Below, one piece after another: positions 2,751 to 20,100 of a stretch of DNA of 33,397 nucleotides. The DNA is from Candidatus Hydrogenedentota bacterium (GTDB taxonomy: Bacteria > Hydrogenedentota > Hydrogenedentia > Hydrogenedentales > JAEUWI01), in the NCBI GenBank assembly GCA_024280935.1, contig JAJRPE010000067.1:1-33397 (forward strand). Direction: 5' to 3'. Position numbers and translations under genes: made by a program. The notes beneath the pieces were generated by a model that saw nothing but the letters and a program-made list of their open reading frames with translations, was not told the DNA's origin and did no database searches. How positions within the stretch are numbered: the stretch's first letter is position 1; every line of letters starts with the position of its first letter.

Positions 2751-3128
2751 GCCAATCGTGCCGTGACGATGTCGTCGGTCCGAATATGTGTGCCGGTTAT
2801 AGCGGTCTGCGAGTGCGAGCACGTGATCCAATAGGGCCGATCTGAATCGAAATACGAACGGTAAGGGTGCCACCCTCACGCGTAGCCGGTTTCCGGCCTA
2901 GCTTGCGGGTGCATTTCTCAACCCCCTTTAGCTCGTGACGCATGCCGTAACACTCTTACAGTCTTTTTTCGGTATGGTGTCTATTCTGTTGACGTTGCAC
3001 CCGCAAGCTCCCCCGCTTCGCTCCTCCGCGTGAGGGTGACACCCTTGTCGTGATCTTTGCTAATAGTGGTACACATCTATTCTCACTGCTCTTGATGCGA
3101 GTGTGTGTGATCTGCAACGAGGTTTTCA
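2751..3128. other. Convergent intergenic region holding a paired palindromic repeat
   Basis: This 378-bp gap lies between the ends of the kinase gene and the histidine-kinase gene. Half of it is the composite repeat at 2863-3046. Outside that I see no convincing ORF, RNA gene or classical terminator with a T-run. Confidence 0.7.
2863..3046 (+). repeat. Composite element of two inverted 50-bp repeats (copy 1)
   Basis: Arm A (2863-2912) and arm B (2997-3046, inverted) share both ends, AAGGGTGCCACCCTCAC and GCGGGTGC, but have two core types. The core of A contains GCCGGTTTCCGGC; the core of B contains GGAGCGAAGCGGGGGA. The arms are separated by 84 bp. A second copy at 31157-31344 has the same two arm types in the reverse order, so it is the same composite in opposite orientation. 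The start of each arm is itself a tight palindrome. This looks like a REP/BIME-type or small MITE-like element. No transposase is in the window. Confidence 0.88.
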
Positions 3129-4244
3129 CTACTCCCCTGATTCCACCGCGCCATCTCCAGCCCCCTCTGGCAACTCCATCACGAACATAACCCACCCTTC
3201 GGGGGCATCGGCGAGCCAGAGTTTTCCCTGGTGGGCACGGACAATCTCACGGGCGAGACTGAGTCCCAGCCCCACGCCATCAACCTTTCGGGAATGGGCG
3301 GGATCGGCCCGATAGAAGCGCCGAAAAACCTGCCGCCGGTCCTCTTCGGGAATGCCCTCGCTCGTATTGGCAATGGCAAATCGCAGGTTTTCTTCGTGCC
3401 TGAATAGCTGAAAGCGAATCTTGCCGCCGTCGATATTGTACTTGATGGCGTTGTTCACCAGATTTTGAATGGCCTGCTGCAAGAGTGCCTCATCAGCATC
3501 AACCCAGGCATCTTCTTCAAGCTCTTGAATCACGCGAAGTTCCGGTGCCAGGATTTCCACGTCCTCGATCACCTGCCCAAGAAGTTCATCGAGCCGCATC
3601 GGCGTGAGCGCAACACGAATTCGCCCCGCATCGGCCAAAGAAAGCAACAGCAAGCGACGAATAATGACCTTGAGCCGCTGCACTTCCTCCAGAAGGCGGC
3701 CCAGGTTTTGTTGTAATGGTGAACCATCGGGAGCCTCCTGCAAGGCTTGATCCAGTTGCCCCTGTAGAATAGTGAGCGGCGTCTTCAACTCATGGGCCGC
3801 GTCCGCACTGAAACGGGTCGCGTGGTTAAAACTGACCTCCAGCCGCTCCAACATGTCATTGAATACATCAATAAGTCGGCCAAACTCGTCGCCCGCGCCA
3901 CGCTGGGGTATGCGCCGCTCCAAATCCTGGGCTGTAATGCCTTCCGCCGCGTCAATAAGCAGGTCCACAGGTCTCACCGCATACCAGGCCAACAGCCAGC
4001 TTCCGCCCAATACGCAGACCAGACCAAGGGCGAAAAGGAACAAAAACTCCCTGCGAAACCAACGTACAGCATCAAGATGGCTTGCCAACCAGGCATGGCC
4101 AGCAACCAATTCAGTGTCAAGCCCAGAAAGGCTCGAAAACGCTTCCAAGAGCTGCCAGGACCACCAGGCGAATCCCAGCAATACCAACCCGGACACCGCG
4201 ACCGATACCAGCAAAACCCGGGTACGGAAGGAGCGGGGAGTCAT
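3129..4244 (-). CDS. Membrane sensor histidine kinase (HAMP/HisKA/HATPase)
   Basis: A 371-residue sensor kinase of a two-component system. Transmembrane helices lie at about residues 9-30 and 66-88, with only a short ~35-residue periplasmic loop between them. A HAMP domain follows (~89-140). The H-box FSADAAHELKTPL contains phospho-acceptor His151. The ATPase part has an N-box (NLVNNAIKYN), a G1-type segment (IPEEDRRQVFRRFYRAD) and the G2 motif GLGLS. All catalytic motifs look intact. The architecture resembles CusS/heavy-metal or envelope sensors, but the loop is too short for a large ligand domain. The ATG overlaps the regulator stop by 4 bases, so the two are co-transcribed and translationally coupled. 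Confidence 0.95.
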   Translation of the reverse strand: MTPRSFRTRVLLVSVAVSGLVLLGFAWWSWQLLEAFSSLSGLDTELVAGHAWLASHLDAVRWFRREFLFLFALGLVCVLGGSWLLAWYAVRPVDLLIDAAEGITAQDLERRIPQRGAGDEFGRLIDVFNDMLERLEVSFNHATRFSADAAHELKTPLTILQGQLDQALQEAPDGSPLQQNLGRLLEEVQRLKVIIRRLLLLSLADAGRIRVALTPMRLDELLGQVIEDVEILAPELRVIQELEEDAWVDADEALLQQAIQNLVNNAIKYNIDGGKIRFQLFRHEENLRFAIANTSEGIPEEDRRQVFRRFYRADPAHSRKVDGVGLGLSLAREIVRAHQGKLWLADAPEGWVMFVMELPEGAGDGAVESGE

Positions 4245-4921
4245 TCCGCTCCGTCCTTGCAGACACGGTAACCCACGCCGCGAATGGTCTCGATGACAGG
4301 GTTTTCCTTGTCCGGTGAGACTTTTTTTCGGAGACGCTGTATGTGAACGTCCACCAAATTGGTATTCGGATCAAAATCATAGCCCCACACGTGCTCCAGA
4401 ATCTGGGTTCGGGTGTAGACCCGTCCCGGACTGCGCATGAGATATTCCAGCAGGCTGAATTCCCGTGCCGTGAGTCTTACGGATTCTCCCCTGCGTTTAA
4501 CCTCGCGAGTCAACACGTTTACTGAAACATCACCCGCCTGAAGGAGGCTCATTTGCTCGTCCGACGACCGACGCAAGACCGCGTGGAGGCGAGCCGTCAA
4601 TTCCTCGACGTAAAAGGGCTTGGTGAGGTAATCATCCGCGCCCGTGTTGAGCCCTTCGATGCGCTCATCCAGTTCAGAGCGGGCCGTAAGCAAGATGACT
4701 GGGGTCGTGTGCCCTTTCTTACGAAACTGCTTGAGAATGCTGAGTCCGTCGCGACCCGGCAGCATGATGTCCAGCACAATGGCATCGTAGGGCTGGTCCA
4801 GGATGCGCTCCATGGCCTCGTCACCATGGTCGCACAATTCCACCAGGAAGCCCTGCTCCGTAAGGCCCTTTTTGACGAAATCAGCGATCTGCTTTTCGTC
4901 TTCCACCACGAGGATTTTCAT
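4241..4921 (-). CDS. OmpR/CusR-type response regulator
   Basis: A 226-residue DNA-binding regulator that pairs with the overlapping histidine kinase. The receiver domain has the acidic pocket Glu7/Asp8, phospho-acceptor Asp51 (VLDIMLPG) and Lys101 (LTKPF). The C-terminal winged helix ends in the usual DVHIQRLRKKV...IETIRGVGYRV segment. Length and motifs are complete. It is the first gene of the minus-strand pair and is divergent from the EF-hand protein gene, which is therefore a natural candidate target. The inducing signal is unknown. Confidence 0.96.
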   Translation of the reverse strand: MKILVVEDEKQIADFVKKGLTEQGFLVELCDHGDEAMERILDQPYDAIVLDIMLPGRDGLSILKQFRKKGHTTPVILLTARSELDERIEGLNTGADDYLTKPFYVEELTARLHAVLRRSSDEQMSLLQAGDVSVNVLTREVKRRGESVRLTAREFSLLEYLMRSPGRVYTRTQILEHVWGYDFDPNTNLVDVHIQRLRKKVSPDKENPVIETIRGVGYRVCKDGAE

Positions 4922-5064
4922 GGGCGCAGTATACCATGGGGTCTCGCCCCTGCCGCCAGATTACAAACTCGTCATAAAAGGGACGTAGTGCTTGTCATCT
5001 TCTTCCTCTATCCTGAGGCCATGACAGCCCATGGAAACTACAACCCAAGATGGAGGATGATGCA
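4922..5064. promoter_or_regulatory. Divergent promoter region between two-component system and EF-hand gene
   Basis: This 143-bp gap must hold the promoters for both directions. Two similar heptamers, TCGTCAT (4969-4975) and TTGTCAT (about 4991-4997), lie roughly 22 bases apart on one face of the DNA. That would suit an OmpR-family direct-repeat site, but the match is short. No clear -35/-10 pair was found. Confidence 0.35.
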
Positions 5065-5790
5065 ATGCAAATCAAATCAATCATTCGGACAATCGAAACT
5101 CGGCCCGTCGCCTGTTTGACGGGCGCGACCCTGTGCGTCGGCGCACTCGCCTTCGGACTGGCGGCAGTCGCAGAAGACGAAGCCCCGAAAAGCATCAACA
5201 AGGCCACCCAGCAAAGCGAGAAAGCATGCCCACGTCAACATGCGGACAACCAGGAGGAGGACTGGCGCCCTCTGGGACCCCGTGGAGAAGGCAGGGCCTA
5301 TGGCCGTCCCGATGGCCCGCCGCCGCGCCGTGGCGAATTTGGCCCCCGTGGACCCAGGGGCTACGGGCGACCCGAGGGTCCGCCACCGCCCCGTGGTGCG
5401 TTTGGACCCCAGGGGCAAGAGCGTGATTTTGCACGGCCACCCCGGCCTGAATTCGGAGGGCCGGGTCGTGGACCAGAGCGCTTCGCGCGTCGTGGAGAAG
5501 GCGGCCACCGTCCCCCACCCCCCCGTGGTGAATTCGACAAGGCCTGGGGCGATGATTTCGAGCCGCGCCGACTTGGTGGTGATCGTGGACCCCGTGGCTT
5601 TCGTGGACCAGGTCGTCCCCCGGGTCCGCCCGCCTTTTCGGATATCGACTCCGATGGCAGCGGCAGCATCAGCCCCGAAGAATTTAAGGCCTTCCACGAA
5701 CGCCGGAGTCCGGCCCACCGCCCACGAGGCCCCCGTGGAGAAGGCCGCCCACGTCACGACGGGCCACCGCCGCCGCCGTCCGCTGAATAA
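5065..5790 (+). CDS. Exported Pro/Arg/Gly-rich EF-hand protein
   Basis: A secreted, low-complexity protein, 241 residues from the preferred start. An in-frame ATG lies at 5050, but GGAGG at 5052-5056 is placed 8 bases before the ATG at 5065, so the later start is chosen. A signal peptide is evident (hydrophobic TGATLCVGALAFGLAAVA, then acidic residues). The middle is built of repeats such as PPPPRGEFG and RGPRGYGRP, and the 12-base unit CGTGGAGAAGGC recurs three times. Near the C-terminus is one canonical EF-hand loop, DSDGSGSISPEE, flanked by Phe residues as expected. It should bind calcium in the periplasm or outside. Its place beside a divergent two-component system suggests it is part of an envelope metal or cation response. 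No family name is recognised. Confidence 0.82.
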   Translation: MQIKSIIRTIETRPVACLTGATLCVGALAFGLAAVAEDEAPKSINKATQQSEKACPRQHADNQEEDWRPLGPRGEGRAYGRPDGPPPRRGEFGPRGPRGYGRPEGPPPPRGAFGPQGQERDFARPPRPEFGGPGRGPERFARRGEGGHRPPPPRGEFDKAWGDDFEPRRLGGDRGPRGFRGPGRPPGPPAFSDIDSDGSGSISPEEFKAFHERRSPAHRPRGPRGEGRPRHDGPPPPPSAE

Positions 5791-5828
5791 ACGCCGATTC
5801 GGGTAACAACCCGTTTCCGCTCTATGCA

Positions 5829-5867
5829 GACTGGAGCAGCCAATAATACGGCTGCTCCGGTCTTTTT
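5829..5867 (+). terminator. Intrinsic terminator after the EF-hand gene
   Basis: A 13-bp stem (5829-5841 with 5850-5862, one G-T pair) closes an 8-base loop and is followed by five T residues at 5863-5867. It is a textbook rho-independent terminator and separates the EF-hand gene from the ATPase pair. Confidence 0.92.
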
Positions 5868-6017
5868 GCTGTTTCTACCCCTTCTGAGCGTTTACACGCC
5901 CACCCGCTATGGCTTAGACTCTGTCTATCACATATCATGACCTTTTGGGCGAGATTAAGGACCACTCACCCCGGACTTGGGTTTCGAACGCAGAAACGGG
6001 TGGAGGAGGACAAAAGC

Positions 6018-7127
6018 GTGCTTACTGAAATCTACATTGACAATTTCCGATGTCTGACGAATTTTCGGATCGAACCCGGCTATTTCCAGCTCTGGTTGGG
6101 AGACAACGGTTCAGGAAAGACATCGACGTTCGATGCCTTGCGCAACATCCAACGTTTCTTGCGGGGTGAACACATCGAAGATATCTTCAGTGCGGCAAGC
6201 CTGACCACATGGGACAAACGCAGTGAACAGACCTTCGGTTTTTCCCTGAATATCGATGACGATGCCTACGAATACCAACTTACGATTCAGCATTCGCTTC
6301 AAGAGAACAGGATGCGTATTCTCCGCGAAGAACTCAAGTGGAAAGGCTTCACTTTTTTTCTCTTCGATGGCAAGGAAGTTCATCTTTACCGAATTAACCG
6401 CGAATCGCAGCTGGTGGAAGAGGGCACTCATTTTTCTGCGGATTGGAGCCGGTCCGTAATTTCCACCATAGCGCCCCGTGAAGACAATTTTCCCCTGCTT
6501 CGATTCCGGGAGGAGGTCGGAAGCTGGCTTTTGATTCACCCCGTTCCACTCGTTGTAAAGCAGGTAGCTGATTCCGAAACACGGCACTTATCCCTGCACG
6601 CAGAAAACTTTGCCCAATGGTATCGCCACATCCTTCAGGAAAAACCAGGTATCGGGTACAAGGCAAAGGAATCTCTTGCGAAGGTCTTGCCGGGTTTTGA
6701 ACAGCTCAGCCTAAAAGAAACGGGCGAAGCCAGAAGACTGACGGCCACCTTTCGCATCAACGGGGAAGATCGGGCCTTCGATTTCATGGCGCTTTCTGAT
6801 GGGCAACGGCAATTAATCGTGCTTTACACCGTGCTGGAAGCGTGGCGGGATGGAAGCTTTTCAACGCTGTTCATTGATGAGCCGGACAATTTCACCTCCT
6901 TGCGCGAGATAGGTCCCTGGGTTGATCTCCTGAATGAAATCTGTGACGAGGATGACAAGCAGGCCATCGTTGTTTCGCACCACCCCAAAATTATCAACAA
7001 GATGGCAAGAGGCGCTGAACTGTGGTTTTCCAGAGAAAAGGGAGCACACGTAGTCGTCAAGCCCTATCCCACAACGCCCGGCCTCACACCAGCAGAAACC
7101 ATGGCCCGGGGATGGGACGATGAGTAA
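6018..7127 (+). CDS. ABC/RecF-like AAA ATPase of a two-gene defence-like pair
   Basis: A 369-residue ATPase related to the SMC/RecF/OLD ATPase group. The open frame extends to an ATG at 5937, but GGAGGAGG at 6002-6009 positions a GTG at 6018, giving the classic start LTEIYIDNFRCL. Motifs in order: Walker A GDNGSGKT (28-35); ABC-type signature LSDGQRQ (259-265); Walker B LFIDEP with Asp287/Glu288; and an H-switch SHH (320-322). There is no long coiled coil and no nuclease domain. The downstream gene overlaps by 8 bases and encodes a Toprim-like protein, so together they mimic the ATPase-plus-Toprim layout of OLD nucleases and of the PARIS AriA/AriB pair. A defence role is inference from this layout. 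Confidence 0.85.
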   Translation: MLTEIYIDNFRCLTNFRIEPGYFQLWLGDNGSGKTSTFDALRNIQRFLRGEHIEDIFSAASLTTWDKRSEQTFGFSLNIDDDAYEYQLTIQHSLQENRMRILREELKWKGFTFFLFDGKEVHLYRINRESQLVEEGTHFSADWSRSVISTIAPREDNFPLLRFREEVGSWLLIHPVPLVVKQVADSETRHLSLHAENFAQWYRHILQEKPGIGYKAKESLAKVLPGFEQLSLKETGEARRLTATFRINGEDRAFDFMALSDGQRQLIVLYTVLEAWRDGSFSTLFIDEPDNFTSLREIGPWVDLLNEICDEDDKQAIVVSHHPKIINKMARGAELWFSREKGAHVVVKPYPTTPGLTPAETMARGWDDE

Positions 7128-7683
7128 GGCTTCTAAGTTCATCGTGCTCTGCGAAGACGAAGCCCACAAGATATTCGCTACACGCTTCTTGGCAAGAACC
7201 TGGCGCATCGACTCGCGTAATATTACTGTGGTCCCTTACCCTGGAGGACAGGGTTCTGGGAAAAAGCATGTTTTCGATACGCTGGGAAGACACATGAAGG
7301 CCTATCGTTCCCGACAGGCTTCCACCGTATTGATTGTGATGGCCGATGCGGATGAAGAGGAAGTCGCAAGCATGCAGAAGGCGTTGGATGAAAAAGTCGA
7401 GGGCGGGCGAAAAAAAGACGAGCAGATTATCTATGTGATTCCCAAGTGGCACATCGAGACTTGGCTGGCCTGGCTCGATGGTGATGAGAACGTTGATGAG
7501 ACGGATAAACATCGCTACAAGAACAGATACTCTCTTGAGAAACGAAACGACAGAAAGACGGTTCACCATCTCGTGGATACGCTCGCTAAACACTGCCGAG
7601 ACAATGAAAAACTGGTATCGCCCCCGGACTCCCTCATCGCGGCTTGCAATGAATTTGGGCGAATACGCGATACCCTGTCATAA
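7120..7683 (+). CDS. Toprim-like (DUF4276/DUF4435-like) partner of the ATPase
   Basis: A 187-residue protein starting inside the ATPase gene (8-base overlap), so the two are probably made together. Visible motifs are FIVLCEDEAHKIFA (7-20), where Glu12/Glu14 would match the Toprim glutamate, and VLIVMADADEE (70-80), which resembles the DxD of Toprim nucleases. A conserved-looking block IPKWHIETWLAWL (107-119) follows. These features fit the Toprim-like proteins found beside AAA ATPases. In the known systems that fold cuts DNA or RNA after ATPase sensing. I cannot assign it to a named defence system. The stop codon is 6 bp from that of the convergent alpha-galactosidase gene. Confidence 0.68.
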   Translation: MSKASKFIVLCEDEAHKIFATRFLARTWRIDSRNITVVPYPGGQGSGKKHVFDTLGRHMKAYRSRQASTVLIVMADADEEEVASMQKALDEKVEGGRKKDEQIIYVIPKWHIETWLAWLDGDENVDETDKHRYKNRYSLEKRNDRKTVHHLVDTLAKHCRDNEKLVSPPDSLIAACNEFGRIRDTLS

Positions 7684-7686
7684 TCC

Positions 7687-9744
7687 TTACTCGGCCCTCT
7701 TATAATGGATCACAGCCGCACCGGGGCTGGCCTCGATTTGGATATCAAGGCCCTGCTCCCTAAGCGCAGCACCCGTCATCCGAACCGTCTCAGGCTGATC
7801 AAAGTTCCTAACTTCGTATTCCGCGTCGGCCACGAGTCCCTGGAGCTTAAAACGCCCGCCATAGAGAGCACTCTCCTTGCGCCGAAAGGCCTGGACGAAA
7901 CCCTCGCCGCTTTCCGGGCGATGAAACTGCCACGCCACCCACGAATCTTCTGCCGAACTATAGGCTGTCAGGGGATAGTAGTCGCCATAGTAGTTGGGCG
8001 CAACGGCAAGCCATTCTTGATAGAGCTTTTGTATAAGGGCATCGTCCACATCGACCCGAAAGTCGAAACAGCCTATGTTGGCGGGGCACATGTTGCTGCG
8101 GCGGGTATAGGGATCGTAGGAGACACCTCCCGTTCCAGCGCCCCAGCCCACCGTGTTTGAAGGAGTATAGCCCGTTCCGTAGATCGGCAACCACATGGAC
8201 AAGCCGTAGGTGTGCCCTTGTTGGCCAGTCGGTTCAAAGAGATAGTCGCTCCGCAATAAGGGCACAGCACGACGCATCGTTTCCAAGTCGTTACGACGCC
8301 CGCCCGAGGCACAGGAGTCTATAAGCATCTTGGGGTGACGCCGAAGCAACTCATCCCAATACGCAAGGTAGCCCATCACGTACTTGTTTTCGGTGATGCC
8401 CTGGCGGTCTTCGGCATCGTTGCCACGCCAAAAGGGAAGGGGGTCAATGTTATAATCCTGGCGGTAGAGGTCGATGCCTTCCTCCGTGATGATCTTGTCT
8501 ATGTGATTGACCAGCCAATCCCAAGCCTCCGGGTCGCCCAGATTGAGCAGCCCGCCCTTTTCACCGCCAAAGACCCACTCCGGGTGTTCCGTGGCCAGCC
8601 AGGTGCCCGCAGCCACACGCTCGGGTTCAAACCATACAATGGTCTTCACGTCCTTGCTGTGCGCGTGGTCGCTAATTGCCCGAAGTCCATTCGGAAATCG
8701 GTGGGGCCGCCGGTCCACTTCCCAAGTCCCGGTCCAAGGCCAATTCTTTTCCGCCGCGCCCACATACCAACCGGCATCCATCCACCAGTAGTCAATCTTA
8801 ATGCCCTTTTCGAGATAGCTGTCGATAAACGCGATCTGGTTTTGCTCGTTGGCCTTGGTCATTTCGGCGAACTGGTGGGAACTGCATGCGGCAAAGAGCG
8901 GCAGCTTTATCTGCTCCCCGCCGGGTTGGGGAATATTGTATTGGATCATCCACTGCCGCCAGGTATTCTGGGCATCAATCCAAGTATTCTCCTTCGTATA
9001 TTGCAAGACCACCAGGGGCGTGCGCACCTCTTCCGACGGATAAAGGGTGAAATGGGTACGCTCCTGCCCGGCAACAACACGAAGCGAATTTTCCTCATCC
9101 CGCGCAAACTCGGCGGCCCATTGGCCGGGCCAGCCCACCACAATGATGACACCCTCGGCTCCTGAGCGGAGATTGAAATAGGGAAACTCAAAATTGGTTG
9201 GGCGTCCGCCCGTGGGCGCGGATAGAAAGGTTTCCCCGGCACCAAGCGCCTTGGTCAATGGCTCAAAGCTACTGGGGCTGAGCGTATCACCACGATTGTA
9301 ATAGAGGGTGAATTCACGGTCCGTGTCACGCTTCAGCGTGACATCCAATGCCTGAATATTGGACAGGATGGGCGTGTTTTCGGTACTGGTGTTCTTGAAA
9401 TACACCGTCCACTCGATGGTATTGAAGTCGCGGTACGCCACGCCTTCCCACCGGATTTCCAGCCCGGTATCTGGATCGGCATAGTTGATCGTGTGGGCGG
9501 TGCGGTGTTCATCTATTTTCTGGTGGTCGTCACGCCGTTCGCAGCGCGCAATAACGACTTCAGAGGAAAGCCCGTCGTACTGGAAGGAAAAAGGAACCGC
9601 CCTATTCTCGCCGACGAATACAGACTTCCAGTGGCTTTCCATCTCGCTGCCCCAAGCGGTCATGTCCGCCTGGAGCTCCAACGCAGTCACCGCACCGGAC
9701 CACACGATCACTGCAAAGACTAATGGCAATATGGAATGTCGCAT
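7687..9744 (-). CDS. Secreted GH36-type alpha-galactosidase
   Basis: A 685-residue glycoside hydrolase of clan GH-D. A signal peptide covers about residues 1-21. An N-terminal beta-sandwich is followed by the barrel. The barrel motifs are DYWWMDAGWY (318-327), WFEPERV (371-377), YRQDYN with putative nucleophile Asp430, and SCASGGRRNDLE (477-488), followed by RSDY with putative acid/base Asp500. These match the melibiase arrangement, so the likely reaction is release of terminal alpha-galactose from oligo- or polysaccharides. Other alpha-linked sugars cannot be excluded. An AAGGA ribosome site precedes the ATG. It could feed the sugar kinase at 1854, but they are not in one operon. Confidence 0.9.
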   Translation of the reverse strand: MRHSILPLVFAVIVWSGAVTALELQADMTAWGSEMESHWKSVFVGENRAVPFSFQYDGLSSEVVIARCERRDDHQKIDEHRTAHTINYADPDTGLEIRWEGVAYRDFNTIEWTVYFKNTSTENTPILSNIQALDVTLKRDTDREFTLYYNRGDTLSPSSFEPLTKALGAGETFLSAPTGGRPTNFEFPYFNLRSGAEGVIIVVGWPGQWAAEFARDEENSLRVVAGQERTHFTLYPSEEVRTPLVVLQYTKENTWIDAQNTWRQWMIQYNIPQPGGEQIKLPLFAACSSHQFAEMTKANEQNQIAFIDSYLEKGIKIDYWWMDAGWYVGAAEKNWPWTGTWEVDRRPHRFPNGLRAISDHAHSKDVKTIVWFEPERVAAGTWLATEHPEWVFGGEKGGLLNLGDPEAWDWLVNHIDKIITEEGIDLYRQDYNIDPLPFWRGNDAEDRQGITENKYVMGYLAYWDELLRRHPKMLIDSCASGGRRNDLETMRRAVPLLRSDYLFEPTGQQGHTYGLSMWLPIYGTGYTPSNTVGWGAGTGGVSYDPYTRRSNMCPANIGCFDFRVDVDDALIQKLYQEWLAVAPNYYGDYYPLTAYSSAEDSWVAWQFHRPESGEGFVQAFRRKESALYGGRFKLQGLVADAEYEVRNFDQPETVRMTGAALREQGLDIQIEASPGAAVIHYKRAE

Positions 9745-10608: not shown

Positions 10609-11439
10609 TTAGGCGGTGAACTTCTTGCGGAACGCGCCGCCTACTAGGCCCATGCCGAGAAGTACGATAGTGGACGGTTCCGGTACCGGTGCAAAGGGCG
10701 TATTGTCCTGCACGTTGATTACGTCGTTGCCACACTGCATCGTCCAGTGGAGGCCAAGGCCACCAAAGTTCGGATTGGTAAGGGAATCCTCGAAAAAGCC
10801 CGCAACTTCGAAGGAAATTTCGAGGAAGTTGTGGGGACCCATGGCGCCCCAAGCTACTTCAGGACTCCACAGCGCAGTACGATCACTGGGCTGGGGCGAT
10901 TGATTCTCGTCTACACGATAGGGGTTCGAGGTCGTAAAGGGAGTAACTACGCCCTCCAAGGTCCAAGAGCCAGGACCATCGTTGAGCCAAAGGCGACCAA
11001 AACGATTCTGATCCTGCACGGTAGCCCGTGTGCTCGTCGCGATAGCGATGTCATAGTCGCCCGTAGCACCCATGTCAATGAACATGTCGCCAGCATAAAG
11101 GTTGTCGGCATCCACGCCTTCGGGCGGGAAACCGGTTACCATGCCGATGTAGAGGCGTCCGCCCGTCAAGGCATTGGGATCGGAATCTTCGTAGGAGTAG
11201 AAGATTTGCTCGATGTCATAGAGCTGATCGCCGCCACCTGGTGTCGGACCTTCTTCATCAACTTGTGTGCGAATGTTGCCGTTATTCAGGGTTACTTGAT
11301 TCTCGTCCCAGTTGTCGTTGTTGACGTCACCGCCGTAACTGAACCAATCGGACCAGTCGCCATCTGTGGTTACCGCGCTCGCGCCAGTGACCATTACAGC
11401 CATCATGGCAAATGCGAATGCTACAGTCAGCTTTTTCAT
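10609..11439 (-). CDS. PEP-CTERM surface protein (exosortase substrate)
   Basis: A 276-residue exported protein. Residues 1-22 are a signal peptide ending GASA. The mature part is acidic and aromatic, with a beta-rich domain (GGRLYIGMVTGFPPEG, GDMFIDMGATGDYDIAIAT) seen in many PEP-CTERM proteins. The C-terminus is a complete sorting signal: PVPEPS (251-256), a hydrophobic helix, then the basic tail RKKFTA. Exosortase should cut near the PEP motif and attach or release it at the surface. A strong GGAGG site lies 9 bases before the ATG. It is expressed from its own sigma-54 promoter (11533-11549) and ends at its own terminator, so it is a separate unit from the exosortase genes. Confidence 0.94.
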   Translation of the reverse strand: MKKLTVAFAFAMMAVMVTGASAVTTDGDWSDWFSYGGDVNNDNWDENQVTLNNGNIRTQVDEEGPTPGGGDQLYDIEQIFYSYEDSDPNALTGGRLYIGMVTGFPPEGVDADNLYAGDMFIDMGATGDYDIAIATSTRATVQDQNRFGRLWLNDGPGSWTLEGVVTPFTTSNPYRVDENQSPQPSDRTALWSPEVAWGAMGPHNFLEISFEVAGFFEDSLTNPNFGGLGLHWTMQCGNDVINVQDNTPFAPVPEPSTIVLLGMGLVGGAFRKKFTA

Positions 11440-11532
11440 TGGTTTTTTCCTCCAAATTTTGATTGCAAGCTGGTGGAGTTGATTGAACCATCAATCTACC
11501 GTACGCTCTGTTAACCTAACCACCTTGCAATA

Positions 11533-11549
11533 CGCACAAGCCGTGCCAA
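11533..11549 (-). promoter_or_regulatory. Sigma-54 (-24/-12) promoter of the PEP-CTERM gene
   Basis: On the minus strand the sequence reads TTGGCACGGCTTGTGCG. The invariant GG (-24) and GC (-12) are exactly 10 bases apart, and the -24 element TTGGCACG is a full consensus match. The -12 element is GTGC rather than TTGC. Expected start is near 11522, giving a leader of about 80 bases. Confidence 0.82.
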
Positions 11550-11661
11550 AAACAAAACCGGCCTAATACCAACAAAAACAGGCGTTCGCCTTGTGTTGGC
11601 TTTTCATATTTGACATTACATTAATCATATTTGACTATTATGAGTCTATTCCGAGTTACCT

Positions 11662-11683
11662 ATATTGTCACCTGTGACAATAT
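11662..11683. promoter_or_regulatory. Perfect palindrome, candidate enhancer site for the sigma-54 activator
   Basis: Arms ATATTGTCAC (11662-11671) and GTGACAATAT (11674-11683) are exact inverted copies with a 2-base spacer. The centre lies about 126 bp upstream of the -24 element, a usual distance for sigma-54 enhancer binding. A related site lies upstream of the activator gene at 25684-25706. Confidence 0.7.
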
Positions 11684-12168
11684 TTTGTTCGCACTCTTAT
11701 GCGAATCACTCAACAGCAAACAAGTACTGTCAAGATCCATACTGAATTTCAGCATATTTTACCTTTTAGAGAGGGTGCGTCTTGTATTTCATTGAGGAAT
11801 ACGCAGATTCGCGACCAAAAATCTCTTCGACGGCATAAAGAGTAAGGGTATAGTTGTTCAGAAATGAACAATTCGGGCGAAGCGATGTCGATCGAGCGAT
11901 TATCGCCGTCAGCCCCTCAGCCAAGATCGAAAGAATGCTCGAAGAAGACAGGGACCGGGGAGCGACCCTACTGATTCCTCAAGCATCGAGATAACGCCGT
12001 TCTAGCTGTCGCCACGCCCCTCCTCCATTGAGGGGCTAAAAGCCCCCCTGCCCGGAGATACCGCCCCCCCCCCAAAAAAAAATTCCATCTCACGTCAATA
12101 CCTGCCGAAGGGCGGGGCAAAACTCACTTTCGTCGGCAATGGCCACGCACACTACACACCCATACCAC

Positions 12169-12612
12169 CTATTGGCGCCGTTGCGACTCAAGACCGTTGG
12201 CGACCCAGGCATTGCCGGTTTCGAGCCGGGCACTAAGCACCTCAATTATGTTCATCAGAAACTGCACCGCTTGTGGACCATCCAGCAGACGGGCGACTTC
12301 GCGCTCCCCGAATGCCAATACACACACGTCCGTTACAGCACGCGCTGTCGCTGATCGAGGACGCTGATGCAGGGTCGCCATCTCCCCGAAAGCCTCAAAG
12401 TCGCGGCACTTCGCAATGTGCTTGTCACCAATGTAAATTGACACGATGCCATCCAGCACCAGATATAGATAGCGTCCTGGATCACCTTCTCGAAAAATAA
12501 CATCCCCTGCGCTGAACCTTTTCTCCTGGCCCAGGGCGACGATAGCCTCGATCTCATTGTCACCGAAACCGAACAAAATACGGGCGCGACGCAACCGGTC
12601 TAATTCATACAT
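12169..12612 (-). CDS. Stand-alone cyclic-nucleotide-binding protein
   Basis: A 147-residue protein made of one CAP-type cNMP-binding domain. The beta-roll (FSAGDVIFREGDPGRYLYLVLDG, 33-55) leads to the phosphate-binding cassette FGEMATLHQRPRSATA (75-90). The Gly-Glu pair and the Arg-Ser-Ala needed to hold a cyclic nucleotide are present, so binding is likely. There is no DNA-binding helix-turn-helix or enzymatic domain, and the C-terminus ends after one helix. It must act by protein contact. It follows the PrsT-like gene by 94 bp on the same strand and may link cAMP or cGMP to the export system; that role is inference. Confidence 0.88.
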   Translation of the reverse strand: MYELDRLRRARILFGFGDNEIEAIVALGQEKRFSAGDVIFREGDPGRYLYLVLDGIVSIYIGDKHIAKCRDFEAFGEMATLHQRPRSATARAVTDVCVLAFGEREVARLLDGPQAVQFLMNIIEVLSARLETGNAWVANGLESQRRQ

Positions 12613-12706
12613 GACATTACTTCAGTCCATCGATTTCTGCTAAAAACATCGTCCACACAAAACAGACCGGGACACCAAGACGCTTGCCGCAAGCGGTGCC
12701 ACCTCT

Positions 12707-15613
12707 CTATTCCGAAAGCGTCTGAAGCAACGCTTCCGCCTCTTCCAACTGGGGAAAATCAAGGCCAGCATTTCGACTCATAGCCAAGGCGTACCGAATC
12801 CGCTTTTGGGCCTCCTCCTTCTTGCCCAACTCCACCAGCAACCGGCCATAGTCAAACATAATCGTCGGGTTCGCCGGATCAATTTGGGCGGCGCGCTCAA
12901 GGTTTGTGCGGCTCTCCTCCAAATTTCCGGTTCGCATCTGCGCCAGCCCAAGGGTATGACGCACACCCGCGTCGTTGGGCAGCTTCTCGCTGGCGATAAC
13001 CGCGTATTTGAGGGCCTCTTCATCGCGCCCGCCCGCGAGCAGCAAGGTGTACGCCAAATTGTTATTGGCTGCGGCATTGTCAGGCATGACATCAACGAGG
13101 GTGAGATAATCCGCCACCGCCGCATCAACATTTCCAGCGCGCTCCATCTGGGAAGCGTGACGGAACAGGGCTTCGGGCACCCGAGGCCCAACCTCCAACG
13201 CTTTATTGATGGCCTCCGCCTCGCCTTCGGTATCGCCCAGTGAATTCAATACCCGCGAGAGACCAATCCAGACACGAGAATCCTTCGGCAGAGCCGATGC
13301 CACAGCACGCGCCAGGTCACCGGCATCTTCGATACTATCTCCCCTGCCAAGGGACCGAAAGGCGAGTTGTGCAAGCGCGACATTCGGATCACGGCTACCC
13401 AAATGCTCCTGATAGAAGTCCCAGGCAGCATCGTTCAAGTCTGCGAGTTGCAGCGCAACGACCGTGGCATAGGCAGAAAGCAGCGATTGGTCTGCCCCCA
13501 TCGCTGCCGCCCATTCCCGTTCCTCCTCCTTCAGCAAGGGAACCTCGCCGCCCAACGCCGCCGATAGCATCATGCCATAGCGCCCCGCAACGACACCCTG
13601 CCCGCCTTCGGGAACAAGCGCTCCCCGGGCAGCCTCTTGTTCCCCGGCTTGCGCAAGACCCGCAGCCATAATAAGGGCCAGGCTGGGGCTTCGGTTCGCA
13701 GCAGACAGCCCATTCGCAATCTTCATCGCCCCGGCCCAATCGCCATCCTGTACACGACAAAGGGCCAACAACGTCGACCGGGCAGATAGTATGGCTGGCG
13801 CGGTCGTAGAAATAGCCTTCAATACCGTGGTCGCCTGCTCACAGTCACCCACACGAACCAACACGCGGCCCAGTATGGATTGCAGTTCGGGGTCATCTGG
13901 AAACTGGCTCGTTGCCCGGCCCAGCCACTGGAGGGCGAGGGCAGGCTCACCCGTATCAAGGTACGCTTGGCACAGGTAAAGATGGCTCCATTTTTCATCT
14001 GGAAACAAGGTATAGCTAGCCTCGGCAGCGCGGCGCGCAGCGTCAAACGCCCTTCCCTCGCGGAGGGCCGTGTAGTGCATCTGATGAGCGTCGATATTCT
14101 CCGGGTACATTCCAATTAGACGCTGAAGATTCTGTGCGGCGATCATGGGCTGGCGAAGCCGACGAAACACCTGTGAGATGTTGAACAGGGCTACCCCATG
14201 ATCAGGCCAACGCTCCAGACAAAAGAGAAATACGGAAAGTCCCTTCTCCCGAGAACCTCCAGAGACCATGGCAAATCCAAGGGCATTGTCCCGCAATACT
14301 GCGACGGCACGCGCTTCGGGAGTGTCCGACTTTTCCGCTTTCCAGCCTTCAAAGTGTGCTGCGATAACCGAGACGTCCTTGGAGAGGAACGCATCGATGT
14401 AGCCCCGCACCTGTGATGTCTCGGGAAGCCCATCGGCCAGTTCCTTCGCCAAGGCTGCCTGGTAAGTAAAGAGGGCGGCCAGCACCAATGTTTCCCGGGC
14501 CTCGTCGCCCCCCTCGGCAAGGTACATATCGCGATTGGCCAGCAATCGATTCAACGCAGCCTGTTTCCACAAGCCCTGCCACGTAACCGACTCGACGGCT
14601 GAGGACAATTCTGCGCCAACCCTGGCCGCGACTTTCTTGCGCGGGGCAGTGCCGCCGCTGGCAGCATAGGCCAGCAAGTTCATTATCTCACCCTCATCGG
14701 GCAGTACACGTGCGGCTTGTTCCAGAAACGCCTTTGCCTCATCGTAGGAACCTGCCTCTACCTTGTAGAAACCAATAATATAGTTTGCCCAAGCCGATTC
14801 GGGATCCTGCTCCAAAACTGCGCGGGCAGCGACTTCGGCCTTTTCCTGTTCACCAGCAATCATCAGGCTGCGAGCATAGCCCAGTCTAATCTCCAAGTCT
14901 TCCGGCCTGGCCTTGGTAAGCAGGAAAAACTCGCCAACCATCTCCTTGACGCGGCCCTGCGCACGATAAACATCGATAAGTCCCATGTGGGCAGCCACGG
15001 ATACCCCCGGTGAACCGTCGGCCAACACCCGGAACAAGGTCTCGGCTTCTTGCGCTTTTCCAGCCTTAAAATACGCTGCGCCCAAATTAAGACGTATCTC
15101 CTCTGAATCCGGATAGGTCTCCGAAAGGCCTTTCAGGGCCTGAATCGCTTCATCCGAACGCCCCATTTTCATCAGAATGACCCCACGCAGTGTGCCGCCT
15201 TCTTTGGGAACCTGCTTAGCGAATTCATCACTAAGGGAGAGCGCCTCATCTATCCGATCCACGCCTTCGAGCATCCGAATTGCTTCTACGTTGGCCTGTA
15301 AGTAGGCCTCCCCAAAAGCAGCATCCATGGTGAAGGCTTTTCTGAACAGCGCAAGCGCCTCGTCTGTCTTCCCTTCGGCCGCGCTGCATCGGGCCAGTCC
15401 CAACTGTGCCATGGGGTTGTCTGGATTGGCCTCCGCTGCGTTTTCATAGGCCTCTCGTGCCGCATCCAGGCGATCAAGGCTCCGAAGGGTGTCGCCTTCG
15501 GCTCTCAATTGCTCACTACGACGATCGCTGCACCCGGAGAATGCCAGCACCGCACAAGAGAGCAAACACAGAATTCCGTATCGCCGCCAATTCAGCGTAT
15601 TGAATATTGTCAT
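12707..15613 (-). CDS. prsT: PrsT-like TPR lipoprotein of the PEP-CTERM system
   Basis: A 968-residue protein built almost wholly of tetratricopeptide repeats. The frame is open to 15706, but GGAAGG placed 8 bases before the ATG at 15613 marks the true start. It then begins with a basic N-terminus, a hydrophobic stretch and a lipobox-like AFSGC, so it should be a lipoprotein. The TPR solenoid starts at once (AAREAYENAAEANPDNPMAQLGLARC) and runs to the C-terminus, with a degenerate middle. Size, lipobox and position beside exosortase and EpsI fit the PrsT family of EPS/exosortase loci. It probably scaffolds the envelope complex. It starts 16 bp after the EpsI stop, so it is in the same operon. 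Confidence 0.85.
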   Translation of the reverse strand: MTIFNTLNWRRYGILCLLSCAVLAFSGCSDRRSEQLRAEGDTLRSLDRLDAAREAYENAAEANPDNPMAQLGLARCSAAEGKTDEALALFRKAFTMDAAFGEAYLQANVEAIRMLEGVDRIDEALSLSDEFAKQVPKEGGTLRGVILMKMGRSDEAIQALKGLSETYPDSEEIRLNLGAAYFKAGKAQEAETLFRVLADGSPGVSVAAHMGLIDVYRAQGRVKEMVGEFFLLTKARPEDLEIRLGYARSLMIAGEQEKAEVAARAVLEQDPESAWANYIIGFYKVEAGSYDEAKAFLEQAARVLPDEGEIMNLLAYAASGGTAPRKKVAARVGAELSSAVESVTWQGLWKQAALNRLLANRDMYLAEGGDEARETLVLAALFTYQAALAKELADGLPETSQVRGYIDAFLSKDVSVIAAHFEGWKAEKSDTPEARAVAVLRDNALGFAMVSGGSREKGLSVFLFCLERWPDHGVALFNISQVFRRLRQPMIAAQNLQRLIGMYPENIDAHQMHYTALREGRAFDAARRAAEASYTLFPDEKWSHLYLCQAYLDTGEPALALQWLGRATSQFPDDPELQSILGRVLVRVGDCEQATTVLKAISTTAPAILSARSTLLALCRVQDGDWAGAMKIANGLSAANRSPSLALIMAAGLAQAGEQEAARGALVPEGGQGVVAGRYGMMLSAALGGEVPLLKEEEREWAAAMGADQSLLSAYATVVALQLADLNDAAWDFYQEHLGSRDPNVALAQLAFRSLGRGDSIEDAGDLARAVASALPKDSRVWIGLSRVLNSLGDTEGEAEAINKALEVGPRVPEALFRHASQMERAGNVDAAVADYLTLVDVMPDNAAANNNLAYTLLLAGGRDEEALKYAVIASEKLPNDAGVRHTLGLAQMRTGNLEESRTNLERAAQIDPANPTIMFDYGRLLVELGKKEEAQKRIRYALAMSRNAGLDFPQLEEAEALLQTLSE

Positions 15614-15629
15614 GCTTGTACCTTCCATC

Positions 15630-16265
15630 TTACTTGATGTTCTCGCGTAGGAATGGGGCCATTCGTAACGCCAGATCGTCCAATGCGGCAAATGCCTGAT
15701 CCTCACCCTGGATACCCGCTGCCGTTACGGGCATACTCAATTTAATCATGGTCGATGTGGGTGTGCCAAAACGCAACTGCTCACGCCCCCAAAGTAGTGC
15801 GTTCACAAAAGAACTCCCGGTAAAGGTGTCGCCCGTCTTGAACCAATATAGTATCGCTTCTTTCCTGTTTCCCTGAAAAATAACCAGTCGCTTGGCACGA
15901 AACTCCATTCCAACGGGGGCAGCGTACGCCCGTTCAACCTCCCACCCCTGCCCCACCAGGCATACCTCGGGAAAATGCAAACTCCGCCGTTTCTGCCCGG
16001 CATAAACCACCGTCACCAGAACAGGAAGGCCACTGGGAGTTACATAATGACGCATAAGAATCGAAGATGTTTCCAGAATGCGGCGGACCTCATCACCCGG
16101 ATCAATATCCTCACCGATTTGGCGATATTGTCCGATGCGTGCGGGCAAGTTGAGATTGGGGTTCTTGAGGGATGACATGGCGGCCCGATCCTGGGCATGG
16201 GTAATGCCAAGATGAAGCGTCGCCGTAAGCGCCATCGCTACGATACCGATGATGTAATGCTTCAT
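15630..16265 (-). CDS. epsI: EpsI-family exosortase-associated protein
   Basis: A 211-residue protein with an N-terminal signal or anchor helix (1-24) and an EpsI domain in the periplasm. The diagnostic block is RRSLHFPEVCLVGQGW (93-108), containing the conserved His, Pro-Glu and Cys. Further EpsI features are YWFKTGDTFTGS and the C-terminal LRFGTPTSTMIKLSMPV. EpsI occurs either fused to or next to exosortases and is thought to assist their role in EPS-linked sorting; its exact reaction is not settled. The ATG overlaps the exosortase stop by 4 bases. Confidence 0.92.
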   Translation of the reverse strand: MKHYIIGIVAMALTATLHLGITHAQDRAAMSSLKNPNLNLPARIGQYRQIGEDIDPGDEVRRILETSSILMRHYVTPSGLPVLVTVVYAGQKRRSLHFPEVCLVGQGWEVERAYAAPVGMEFRAKRLVIFQGNRKEAILYWFKTGDTFTGSSFVNALLWGREQLRFGTPTSTMIKLSMPVTAAGIQGEDQAFAALDDLALRMAPFLRENIK

Positions 16266-17191
16266 GAATCCTGGGACTCCACGTCATGCTCGGGCGCAAA
16301 CTTGCGCAATGCCGCCTCCACGGAAAACAACAACGCGAAAGCAACCGCAAAAATACCAATGCCGGAAATATCGTGAACCCAGCCCGTAGCCATATCACTA
16401 CCCCATACGTAGCCCACAACGCATAAGAAAAAAATACGAGACACATTCGCCAGAATCGCAATGGCGGGCGACACCAGGAGAATAAGAATTTTAGCCCACC
16501 ACCGCGCCTTGGAAACATAGGCCATGAGCGCACCGAAAGCAAGGAGCGCAACCAGTGACCGCATGCCACCGCACACATCGCCGACAAGGAGCCTATCCCC
16601 GGCATCGCCAATATAGACATAGGAGCCATCCTGGACCATATGCAGTGTCAGCGTCTTACCCAGAGCTACCGCCGACTCGGTGGCAAGCATCTTACTCTGA
16701 AAAGAAAGCCCGGAAGTTAGTGTATAGGGCATGGGAATCATGAAGAAGAGAAATGCCAGGGAAAACCAAAGCGTCTGGGTATGCTTTCGCCCAAGAAACA
16801 GCAGGCACAAGCCCGTGAGCACCGGTAGCAGCGCAAGGTGGACAATGGTCATAAAGCCCAGGAAGTCGCCCAGCAATAGCATGCCGCATCCCAAAGCCAA
16901 TACCGGGTATCCCAATAACGAGGGTTCGACGGGCATTCCAAGCAGACGAGTGCGGAGTCGCCACACAAAAAACAAGCTGATTGGCGGGATAATCAACGCG
17001 TGTGAATACAATGAATCGGGAAGGTTCCAGTTGGTGACAATATCCACAAAGGAGCGAAAGAAGGACACCAACACAAGAAGCGCCGCCGCCACAAACACGC
17101 CGATACAAAAACCTCGCTTCCGCTCCCACACGGCCGCCAGGGTTGGCACGCCCGCCCCGCCATCGTCATTTACATCAACAGCATCACTCAT
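16262..17191 (-). CDS. xrt: Exosortase (PEP-CTERM transpeptidase-like protease)
   Basis: A 309-residue polytopic inner-membrane protein with about eight hydrophobic helices. The exosortase active-site residues are all present: Cys207 in GDVCGGMRS, Arg252 in ANVSRIF and His273 in WVHDISG. It should recognise the PEP motif and cut the C-terminal helix from sorted proteins such as the one at 10609-11439. Sequence around the Cys and the separate EpsI place it among EPS-associated exosortases; I cannot give the subtype number. It overlaps the upstream TPR gene by 8 bases and the downstream epsI by 4, so the three are one tight operon. Confidence 0.95.
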   Translation of the reverse strand: MSDAVDVNDDGGAGVPTLAAVWERKRGFCIGVFVAAALLVLVSFFRSFVDIVTNWNLPDSLYSHALIIPPISLFFVWRLRTRLLGMPVEPSLLGYPVLALGCGMLLLGDFLGFMTIVHLALLPVLTGLCLLFLGRKHTQTLWFSLAFLFFMIPMPYTLTSGLSFQSKMLATESAVALGKTLTLHMVQDGSYVYIGDAGDRLLVGDVCGGMRSLVALLAFGALMAYVSKARWWAKILILLVSPAIAILANVSRIFFLCVVGYVWGSDMATGWVHDISGIGIFAVAFALLFSVEAALRKFAPEHDVESQDS

Positions 17192-20100
17192 TGCCTGCCT
17201 CCCCTTCTTTCAGCTTTGCAGCAAGAGCATCTATATCCGCTACAACATCTTTTTTCGCCCCATTGGCGAGAGCGCTAGCCCGAGCCGACTGAACGTATCG
17301 CTGCGCGCGCTCCAAGTCGCCAGTATTCAAGTAGGCTTCGGCCATGGCGATTTCATCCGATAAGGTTAGCGTTCCGGCCAGATCCCTGACACGACGGAGA
17401 TCATCGATGGCACCCTTCGCATCATTCTGACGAATCCGTAGTAGAGCACGCAGTCTTAAAAAGCGCGGGGCCTCCACAATATCCAGACTACGATTCACAT
17501 CATCCAGCGCAGCGGCAAGCCCGGCATTACTTTGGGCGCGCAATGCGGCACGCTGAAAGAGGACCTGGGCATCCTGCTTGTTGAGTCCTTCTGGATCGCT
17601 GCCTCGCTGCTCCAGATAACGGTCACACAGGGCGATAACCACGCCATCATTACCCAAGAGCCTCTGAACTTCAATATTTCCCAGTTGCGCAGGCGCGTAG
17701 CCAGGCACCAATAGCTGAGCTTGGGTAAAGGCGGAAGAAGCCTCACCCAGTTTATCCCGACCTCCCTGCTCGATGAGTAGTTGACCAAAGAAGGTCCATG
17801 CTTCGGGTTCGGTAGGTTTTTGTACATCGAGATAAGCCCGAACCACGGTCAGGGCCTCGTCATATTTTTTCCGTGCAACGAAGGATTTCGCCAGTCCGTT
17901 CACCGCGCCATAATCGCTTGGGTTCTTGGCCACCTGCTCCCGCAATCTGGATTCGGCATCGGCATAATCACCCGCCTGCATATCGAGAAAGGCCTGCAGT
18001 TCAATCAGATGAGGCTCCAAGGCGGGACGCTGCGAAACCAGCTTCTCGTAGCGCTTGAACATGGTCTTTGCCTCCTGCTTAAGCCCTGTGCTCCCATAAA
18101 TGCGAACGAGCATACGCACGGCGCGCTCGTCACTCGAATCAATGTCCAGAATGCGCTCCATAGATGCCCGCGCCGCTTCCTGATTAGCCAAACGCATTTG
18201 CGCATCGCCGATGATATGCCAGGCCACCTTATGGCTCGGCGTACGCTCGGCGACCACTTTAGCAATACGCTCTGCCTTACCGTACTGCCCTTGGAGCAAG
18301 GCCACTTCCGCACGCATCAATGCCACATCGTCCCGATAAGCGGAATCATCCGGCACACCATCAAGGAATCTTGACGCCTCTATCAGGGCCGGGGGCGTTT
18401 GACGCAGAGCCATGCGCGCACGCAAGACAGGTATACCATCATCGTCTGGCTTCGTCGTTTCGACGGTCGCCAGAATTTCATCCACGGTCTGTCGCTGTGA
18501 AAGTTCGCCCGACAATAACAACCGCTCTGCCACCCGTATTCGGAGTCTGTTCAAGGTAGATAGACCGTCCCCCGTTCCATCAAGCACTCCTTCGACGGAA
18601 CGAAGCTGGGCAAGTGCCTCGGACACTTCGCCGAACTGAAGCGCCAACTCCGCACGAAACAGCATAAGCTCGGAACGAGCATCGCCGTCCGCATCGTTGA
18701 GACTGGCATTCAAAATACCTTGGCCCGCGCTCAAATAGCCCCGGCGAGAAAAAAACGTCGCCCATTTCTTCACGTCGTCCGAATCAGAGGCATCCAATGC
18801 CTCGGCAGCTATCGCCAGGGCACTTTCCTTGTCATCCCGGCTCAAGGCAATGTTGGCATCAAGAAAGGCAAAATCTACCCTATCGATACCTGCTGCGAGG
18901 CCCTTGGCCGATACCGTCTCCGCCTTGGCAATCTCTCCCTCTTCCAGGTAGTATCCTGCCAGCGCCACGTAGACGCGAGGCAAGGTCGGATACAACACAA
19001 GCGCCTTTTCCACCAGAAGACGAGCCAACTCCTTATCCTCTTCACTTCGGCTGGCAAGTAAATCCCTGGCCGTGAGAAGCAGTTCGTCAACCGAAGGCTT
19101 CTCCTCCTCAAAAAAACGCTGCGCGGCAACACGAAGCTCCAGGACAGAGCGATTTTTTTCGAAAAAGCGGAACCAAATCTGGCGGGCCTGCCGATCATCT
19201 GGATTATTTCGCAGGTAAAACTCCAGAGATACACGGGCTGCCGGCCAGTCTTCTTCTTTTTCAAGCAAGGATATTGCGAGGAAGTAACGTGCCCGATGTA
19301 ATTTTGGATTCATCTCAACAGCAAGTGTAAAGTACTCCTTTGCTTCATCGAAGTCTTTGCGTGCGTAGGCAATTCTTCCCTTGATGTAATTGTCTGTCGG
19401 AATCTGGTTTGGGTATGCCTTGCGATAAGTTTCCCGAACGACATCGGCCGCCTCCAACTGGCTCTCAGCCAATAGGATTTCGATTTGGAACAGGAGGAGT
19501 CCGGGTGCATCTATGCACATCATCGGTTCCAAGGCCTCAATATGCGCCAGTGCGGCCTTTCGCTCACCCAGGCGCTCCAAGGCAAGCAGATGGCTCTGAT
19601 GCAAATCGGCCTCTTCGGGTGCTGCCGCTATCGCCTCCGCAGTGAGCTTTTTCACCGATTCAAAATCTTCCTTTAAGCGGTACAGTCGAACGAGCGCTCG
19701 GACAATTTCCAAGTCGGCCTGGGGTGTCTCGATGGATGCAGGAAGCAGGTCAGCCGCAGCGTCAAGGTTTCCAGCATCCATCAAATAATTTGCGTAGTTT
19801 GCTTTCACGACCAAGTCGTCTGGAAAGCTGGCACGCTCCCGATCCAGCAACGCCACCGCCTCCAGCGGGCGCTCCCGCTCGCGGTATATCCGCGCCAAAC
19901 GCAAAGGCACATCACGCCGAGGCGCATCTGGGTTCTCCAAGTACTCTTCGAAATCCTTCGCAGCTTCGTTGACTCGCCCCTGGCCATAAATGGCAATCGC
20001 CCTATCGTATTGCAACGCACTATCGGAAGCTGTCTCAGGCGCAATCGAATCAACGATAGCTTCTAAATCATCCCAGAGCCGGTGTTTCCGATAAAACGCC

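Follow-up and report, generated by a model that had tools for sequence, protein, structure and literature searches.

The literature on split ATPase/Toprim systems describes PARIS as a class 4 OLD system (PMC12796447), whose ATPase and Toprim protein are encoded by separate adjacent genes (PMC12796447, PMC10568477). In the account given in PMC12409363, the ATPase forms a hexamer that retains the Toprim tRNase up to the binding of a phage trigger. The class 1 OLD protein of Thermus scotoductus (Ts OLD, PDB 6p74) contains the same two modules in one polypeptide. As reported in PMC7049728, it is without the defining ABC signature motif; the metal-A ligands given there include E377 in Ts OLD and E400 in Bp OLD, and the metal-B ligands S478 and E480 in Ts OLD. 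Gabija, a class 2 OLD system, has a fused ATPase-Toprim protein followed by a UvrD-like helicase. According to a proposal in PMC12839542, OLD-ABC modules linked to TOPRIM have been recruited into BREX and BREX-related loci, where they serve as suicidal backup effectors. On the candidate system HEC-01 the literature found amounts to one report that lists it among the systems detected in Desulfovibrio piger (PMC12724379) and to general statements on Hma-embedded candidates (PMC12111858, PMC12988326).

Split ABC ATPase/Toprim pairs are thus a known kind. We describe here a pair of this kind which by its sequence appears to lie outside both PARIS and the sampled HEC-01 clade, and for which no named family was found in the family libraries and the literature searched (preprints and supplements being outside that search). 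It was found on a stretch of 33,397 nucleotides from a Candidatus Hydrogenedentota bacterium, the whole of which is called the window. The + strand of the window carries two intact overlapping genes, for an ATPase and then a small protein. Reading of the open reading frames confirmed the coordinates, the 8-base overlap and the motifs given by a first-pass annotation (GDNGSGKT, LSDGQ, FIDEP and SHH in the ATPase, CEDE and DAD in the small protein). The features are as follows, with conservation counted over 27 relatives.

5828-5863, + strand: terminator-like stem-loop and T run from a consensus scan, a boundary between the pair and the upstream gene
6018-7127, + strand: gene for an ABC ATPase of SMC/Rad50-head fold, 369 aa, GTG start
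6099-6122, + strand: Walker A, GDNGSGKT, residues 28-35 (G28, N30, G31, G33 and K34 in 27/27)
6792-6806, + strand: ABC signature, LSDGQ, residues 259-263 (S260 and G262 in 27/27, D261 in 25/27, Q263 in 22/27)
6867-6884, + strand: Walker B, LFIDEP, with FIDEP at residues 285-289 (D287, E288 and P289 in 27/27)
6975-6983, + strand: H-switch, SHH, residues 320-322 (S320, H321 and H322 in 27/27)
7120-7127, + strand: 8-base overlap of the two genes, ATGAGTAA, probable translational coupling
7120-7683, + strand: gene for a stand-alone Toprim-type protein, 187 aa, from its model a probable metal-dependent nuclease
7150-7158, + strand: CED (within CEDE, residues 11-14), with E12 a probable metal-A ligand after strand 1 of the model (E12 in 27/27, D13 in 24/27)
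7345-7353, + strand: DAD, residues 76-78, the Toprim DxD, with D76 and D78 probable metal-A ligands in the model (D76 in 26/27, E in the other; D78 in 27/27)
7438-7464, + strand: IPKWHIETW, residues 107-115, spanning the end of strand 4 and the beginning of the helix after it (E113 in 24/27, D in two and Q in one; W115 in 27/27)

The pair had also been described as standing between a terminator and a convergent gene, and this description holds. The stem at 5828-5863 has 14 pairs, of which nine are G-C, and is by far the longest of the terminator-like sites in a scan that as a whole gave 6 sites, barely above the 4.7 expected from shuffles. On the other side, the stop of the small gene at 7683 is closely followed by the end, at 7687, of a convergent alpha-galactosidase-like ORF. 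The GTG start of the ATPase ORF is preceded by GGAGGA, and an in-frame ATG is found upstream at 5937. The GC content of the pair (0.57 at third positions, 0.50-0.51 in total) is at the low end among the long ORFs of the window. An Rfam search of positions 4900-8000 gave no match, and the idea that an RNA from any described family belongs to the system is rejected on this result.

The genes around the window copy are ordinary, with no defence neighbour recognised. At 5050-5790 there is a Gly/Arg/Pro-rich, secreted-looking protein, which has an EF-hand-like motif, DIDSDGSGSISPEEF, at its end and was not found next to the regulator that is conserved in two same-genus relatives. Read by eye, positions 10609-25551 contain an exopolysaccharide gene set resembling the PEP-CTERM/exosortase kind, whose members include a chain-length determinant, TPR proteins, an EpsI-like protein and a sigma-54 regulator. 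An empty site was sought in two same-genus genomes. A block of sulfatase, fructokinase, histidine kinase and regulator genes is conserved in both (L127 and L129), and the pair does not adjoin it; no clean empty site was found, because synteny breaks at the regulator and the orthologue of the alpha-galactosidase is about 90 kb away in genome G001.

The ATPase matches Pfam AAA_21 (51.2 bits, above the cut-off) and SMC_N (38.5 bits, just under the cut-off). Its AF2 model has a pLDDT of 89.9, and is matched by VIA-align to SMC/Rad50 heads with Z of about 21, and to the PtuA ATPases of Septu and retrons with Z of about 19-20 (PtuA 19.5). AriA and OLD ATPases are not among the best 50 VIA-align matches, which excludes nothing. 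A sequence search of the PDB gave three matches, 6p74 being the sole OLD protein among them. The combination of Walker A, signature, Walker B and H-switch that characterizes an OLD-type ABC ATPase is complete, and in its full signature LSDGQ the protein differs from Ts OLD.

The small protein has no family match in Pfam, NCBIfam or PHROGs, weak chance rows aside, and matches HEC-01B of PADLOC weakly (3.2e-5). In its AF2 model (pLDDT 86.6, pTM 0.84) strands and helices follow one another as in a Toprim domain. Three OLD structures lead the VIA-align results, namely 6p74 (Z 8.5, rmsd 3.7, 135 residues aligned to the Toprim of Ts OLD), 6nk8 from Burkholderia (Z 7.1) and 6njv from Xanthomonas (Z 6.8). 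The first unrelated rows are a designed cage at Z 6.6 and lumazine synthases at about 6.5, so that 6nk8 and 6njv are formally tied with unrelated folds, and the 6p74 match is only about 2 above them. Foldseek gave nothing at E ≤ 0.001; the same was true against viral models, where an RloB-like model and a DnaG-Toprim model were among the weak rows, and the PDB sequence search gave nothing useful. With hhalign, the profile of the small proteins aligns to DUF4276/HEC-01B at 91.5% (E 8.8e-7), with E, DxD and ExW all aligned, and to RloB at 66.6% (E 5.4e-5). A response regulator used as control gave 0.12%, and one single OLD Toprim sequence was missed, at 1.3%. The Toprim pattern of E followed by DxD is therefore seen in the predicted fold, in the conservation and in hhalign. 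The earlier suggestion that this protein is Toprim-like is supported both by the leading OLD structures and by the HEC-01B alignment, and structure prediction, which had been proposed as a check, returned a Toprim-like rather than an unrelated fold.

The likeness to class 1 OLD appears to extend to the putative active site, in the order E, DxD, and E after strand 4, the difference being one polypeptide in OLD and two genes here. VIA-align starts with residue 6 of the small protein on residue 371 of 6p74, and residue 4 on residue 392 of 6nk8; if there are no gaps, E12 would fall on E377 in Ts OLD and on E400 in Bp OLD. In the model D76 and D78 come after the third strand, at the place expected for OLD D431 and D433, and hhalign aligns them with the DxD of HEC-01B. 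The block IPKWHIETW had been left unexplained by the first-pass annotation. It can now be tied, with some probability, to the fourth strand and metal-B region of the OLD Toprim: matched by hand to the stretch VVQPSLEAA of 6p74, it is probably the counterpart of PSLE (S478, E480), and E113 is a probable metal-B ligand in the model. Position 111 is H, N, S, R or E among the 27 relatives. Unlike Ts OLD, the new small proteins have no conserved acidic counterpart of the metal-B residue D381; the corresponding position 16 is H16 in the window and H, Q, L, G or R, all non-acidic, among the relatives. To judge from the sequences, D13 beside E12 could take the place of this acid, as ED or EE may in HEC-01B.

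Both genes were found together in 27 loci. In every one the ATPase comes first and the small gene is on the same strand, with -17 to +13 nt from the ATPase stop to the residue at which the small protein begins to align; translational coupling of the pair, in the window via the 8-base overlap, is probable. Because order, strand and near-zero spacing recur in 27/27 loci and the motif residues are conserved, the pairing goes beyond chance. No third gene recurs beside it. In every comparison that allowed dS to be calculated (5/7 sequence pairs for each gene), the dN/dS ratio is below 1, at 0.09-0.28 for the ATPase and 0.10-0.48 for the small gene. The count of 27 leaves aside fragments, contig ends and broken frames (L047, L049, L012, L013, L015, L031), weak matches (L033, L034) and L062, whose parent matches are L022-L024. 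L016-L021 and L063 are second copies of places already within the 27, and so are other short loci that were taken again with wider flanks; none was counted twice. L062 (G100:C136, 6549-9168), from the same genome as L001, holds three remnants of the small protein, about 1.2 kb apart and comprising only the C-terminal 35-60 residues or so, which adjoin a DNA methyltransferase and, by eye, a restriction-type gene. Their appearance is that of copies which have decayed or recombined.

The pair is rare, and its distribution is patchy. A single scan of genome contigs gave six loci, and the pair was found in 7/100 relatives, counting the genome of the window. In the phyla of three relatives, with the centre genome included each time, it was found in 11/294 genomes (Planctomycetaceae relative; two of these weak), 5/297 (Desulfocarbo relative) and 5/240 (Lentisphaeria relative). 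Phage, plasmid and IMG/VR collections gave no homologue, and residence of the pair on phages or plasmids is rejected on that basis.

By sequence, HEC-01 is the nearest PADLOC candidate. HEC-01A is the best PADLOC family for the window ATPase (7.8e-21) and is matched by all 11 ATPase members tested (best 4.8e-25), while the HEC-01B models that match most often do so for 3/11 small proteins at E ≤ 0.01. Like the new pair, HEC-01 consists of two adjacent genes, for an ATPase and then a small Toprim-like protein, and it is an Hma-embedded candidate, as is the new pair in L064 and L065. The same phylum holds both, and an HEC-01-like pair is present even in the genome of the window: this second ATPase and DUF4276-type pair is in L092 (G000:C657, 7354-9281). 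Two RloB genes are also found in that genome (G000:C18 and C390).

The ATPases separate the two, however. In a tree of 45 rows, a single group (100/98) on a long stem takes in all 27 new ATPases. Ten HEC-01 ATPases were sampled, of which nine, from the same phylum, form a separate group (100/100), also on a long stem, and the tenth (L094) is loose; as far as these ten show, the new clade stands apart from HEC-01. The small proteins also differ, HEC-01B being of ELEAW type and the new proteins of PK..(H/N)IETW type. The new profile found none of the small proteins of the ten HEC-01 loci at E ≤ 1e-8, and Pfam DUF4276 did not match the small protein of the window or of five further members (6 of 11).

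RloA/RloB has a similar composition, an ATPase with a small Toprim-like partner, and RloB has CEG..TE, DxD and an FExW block. It differs in that RloB is matched by Pfam PF13707 and the new small protein is not, and that the RloA ATPases are a clade of their own, the third group of the tree (100/99). The OLD rows were too long to place. Comparison with PARIS, as with OLD, had been made in the first-pass annotation. The analogy is apt, since ATPase and Toprim are encoded by separate adjacent genes in 27/27 loci, and the window ATPase matches AriA models (5.5e-16). It does not extend to the small protein, for which the nearest PADLOC candidate is HEC-01: DUF4435 has no Pfam match in the window protein or five further members (6 of 11), AriB has no PADLOC match among 11 small proteins at E ≤ 0.01, and no DUF4435 was found in 67 related genomes. 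Membership of PARIS, a system that also senses anti-restriction proteins such as Ocr and cleaves tRNA, is accordingly rejected. Gabija is rejected too, because there are two separate genes, with no fused Toprim, no helicase and no recurrent third gene.

The window ATPase falls in a clade of seven (100/100) with L001, L002, L003, L004, L064 and L065. These come from Lentisphaeria (L004) and a Phycisphaerales MAG (L003), and include the two Hma-embedded copies (L064, L065); L001 and L002 we take, from the organism names, to be Desulfobacterota. Two copies in one same-genus genome (L044, L045) are elsewhere on the tree. The window copy therefore groups with other phyla and not with its own genus, which argues for horizontal transfer.

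In 4/27 loci the pair is inside a defence operon with all genes on the same strand: two Hma, one BREX and one type I restriction. The gene orders are HmaB-pair-HmaC (L064, L065), PglX-..-pair-..-PglZ-BrxL (L060, where PglZ and BrxL were recognised from their 61% and 82% identity to the L059 proteins) and HsdM-HsdS-pair-HsdR (L057). In a fifth locus, L059, the pair directly precedes BREX PglZ-BrxL. These five copies occupy at least four separate places on the ATPase tree. In L060 an ORF for a further small ABC-type ATPase (8204-9217) comes after the pair within the BREX locus, which also contains two ORFs (3082-4968 and 4965-6164) that have no PADLOC match at E ≤ 1e-20.

Five more loci have a defence-type gene less than 2 kb from the pair. 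These are a DruE-like helicase at 194 nt (L051), a type II restriction enzyme at 544 nt (L001), an Mrr_cat endonuclease at 235 nt (L061), and Fic genes at 1.4-1.6 kb (L046, 12084-13286; L050, 7489-8649), whose Fic domains were assigned by Pfam and whose SoFic label comes from two batch-scan matches that fit them. The other 17/27, including the window, have ordinary neighbours by eye, with no defence gene recognised within about 5 kb. Two MAG loci have the pair between dnaN and recF (L004, 256-4170) and upstream of dnaX and recR (L006, 2928-8297), positions which may be chance or hint at replication-linked insertion. Distant copies in L044 and L050 are near the biotin synthesis genes bioA and bioB.

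For 20 of the loci the neighbour scan covered 129/131 flanking ORFs (two long ORFs were left out), and for the remaining seven the neighbours were chosen by eye and then scanned. Matches to PDC-S04, PDC-S24, PDC-S15, mad2 and mad3 were present and were not assigned to individual loci. As a random control, 136 ORFs were taken from 18/20 fetched stretches of 10 kb in four genomes, leaving out three long ORFs and two loci. The control matched 32 PADLOC families, among them AbiEi, PD-T4-6, mad3, mad6, MkoA and PycC; no Hma, BREX or restriction family is among the control matches listed, which cover 25 of the 32. Since random stretches also match PADLOC, proximity to such a match is weak evidence, and the argument for defence rests instead on embedding, patchiness and transfer. 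The first-pass annotation had proposed a survey of neighbourhoods, with confinement to housekeeping contexts counting against a defence system, and the homologues are not so confined.

The reading we favour, with moderate confidence, is that this is a two-gene defence module of split OLD type, a PARIS/HEC-01-like abortive system forming a new clade. Since it travels between bacterial phyla and is occasionally found in anti-phage operons, it most likely serves as an infection alarm that is mobile and has an effector cutting nucleic acids. Fold, motifs and fixed pairing are computational results; complex formation, trigger, substrate and outcome we infer by analogy. The ABC ATPase would form ATP-dependent dimers or higher assemblies, and may hold or gate the separately encoded Toprim protein in a complex. 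On infection, a phage product or interference with the host restriction machinery would be sensed, changing the state of the ATPase and so freeing or activating the nuclease. The nuclease would then cut nucleic acid by two-metal catalysis, using E12, D76, D78 and E113, possibly with D13 for the second-metal acid of OLD; the substrate may be tRNA, which AriB cuts, or DNA, the substrate of OLD and GajA. The resulting shutdown of the cell would stop the phage. The picture of an ATPase sensor releasing or activating a two-metal Toprim nuclease is drawn from the analogy with PARIS and from the backup-effector proposal for BREX. The BREX copies (L059, L060) and Hma copies (L064, L065) show recruitment of the kind proposed there, and a module that moves between phyla and inserts into Hma, BREX and type I restriction operons would be a backup effector in them.

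The same two modules could also recognise and cleave plasmid or other foreign DNA directly, in the manner of Gabija or of Wadjet, which combines an SMC ATPase with a Toprim nuclease, leaving the host alive. This is suggested by the homology of JetD to the OLD Toprim, described in PMC10568477, and by the combination of an SMC/Rad50-type ATPase with an OLD-type Toprim, both of which PMC7049728 ties to DNA cleavage in OLD proteins. However, an ATPase of 369 aa is too short for long coiled-coil arms, the two genes recur without kleisin- or kite-like partners, and the split ATPase/Toprim pair of known function, PARIS, acts by abortive tRNA cleavage as described in PMC12409363. We therefore regard direct cleavage of this kind as unlikely.

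A role in DNA repair or replication, in which a RecF/Rad50-like ATPase and a RecR-like Toprim protein act on DNA ends or gaps and not in defence, would fit the SMC/Rad50-head fold (with SMC_N just under the cut-off) and the positions beside dnaN/recF and dnaX/recR. There is also a precedent in an archaeal OLD-family protein that, as PMC12796447 describes it, works in the cell cycle and not in defence. The rarity, patchiness and transfer between phyla are not what such a role would suggest, nor are the copies found inside Hma, BREX and type I restriction operons or the conserved nuclease-type residues, and it seems quite improbable. That the genes are a toxin-antitoxin pair which addiction maintains, any defence being incidental, is very unlikely: the gene overlap, the patchy distribution, the Pfam description of AAA_21 as ‘putative AbiEii toxin, Type IV TA’ and the restraint of the nuclease by the PARIS ATPase (described in PMC12409363) would agree with it, but that description is the label of a broad ATPase family, the ATPase is large, conserved and of sensor type, and embedding is seen in restriction operons and not on plasmids (no plasmid match).

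To return to the abortive defence module, its place in different operons allows a more specific suggestion, which is possible but doubtful. The clade may be a portable restriction guard, a split-OLD lineage with its own Toprim subfamily that entered Hma, BREX and type I operons independently and fires when phage anti-restriction proteins block the hosts, lone copies such as that of the window watching some other target. If this were true, an anti-anti-restriction alarm of PARIS type would have evolved a second time, independently, in this clade. Because insertion into Hma, BREX and type I restriction operons has recurred, the idea of a backup effector can be put to a direct test. Together the pairs, from poorly studied phyla, make up a coherent and as yet unnamed branch of the two-gene ATPase/Toprim modules, in which the formerly orphan-looking conserved block IPKWHIETW probably has its explanation, and the signature CED, DxD and P-K-x-x-IETW can be used by annotators to find further members of the branch.
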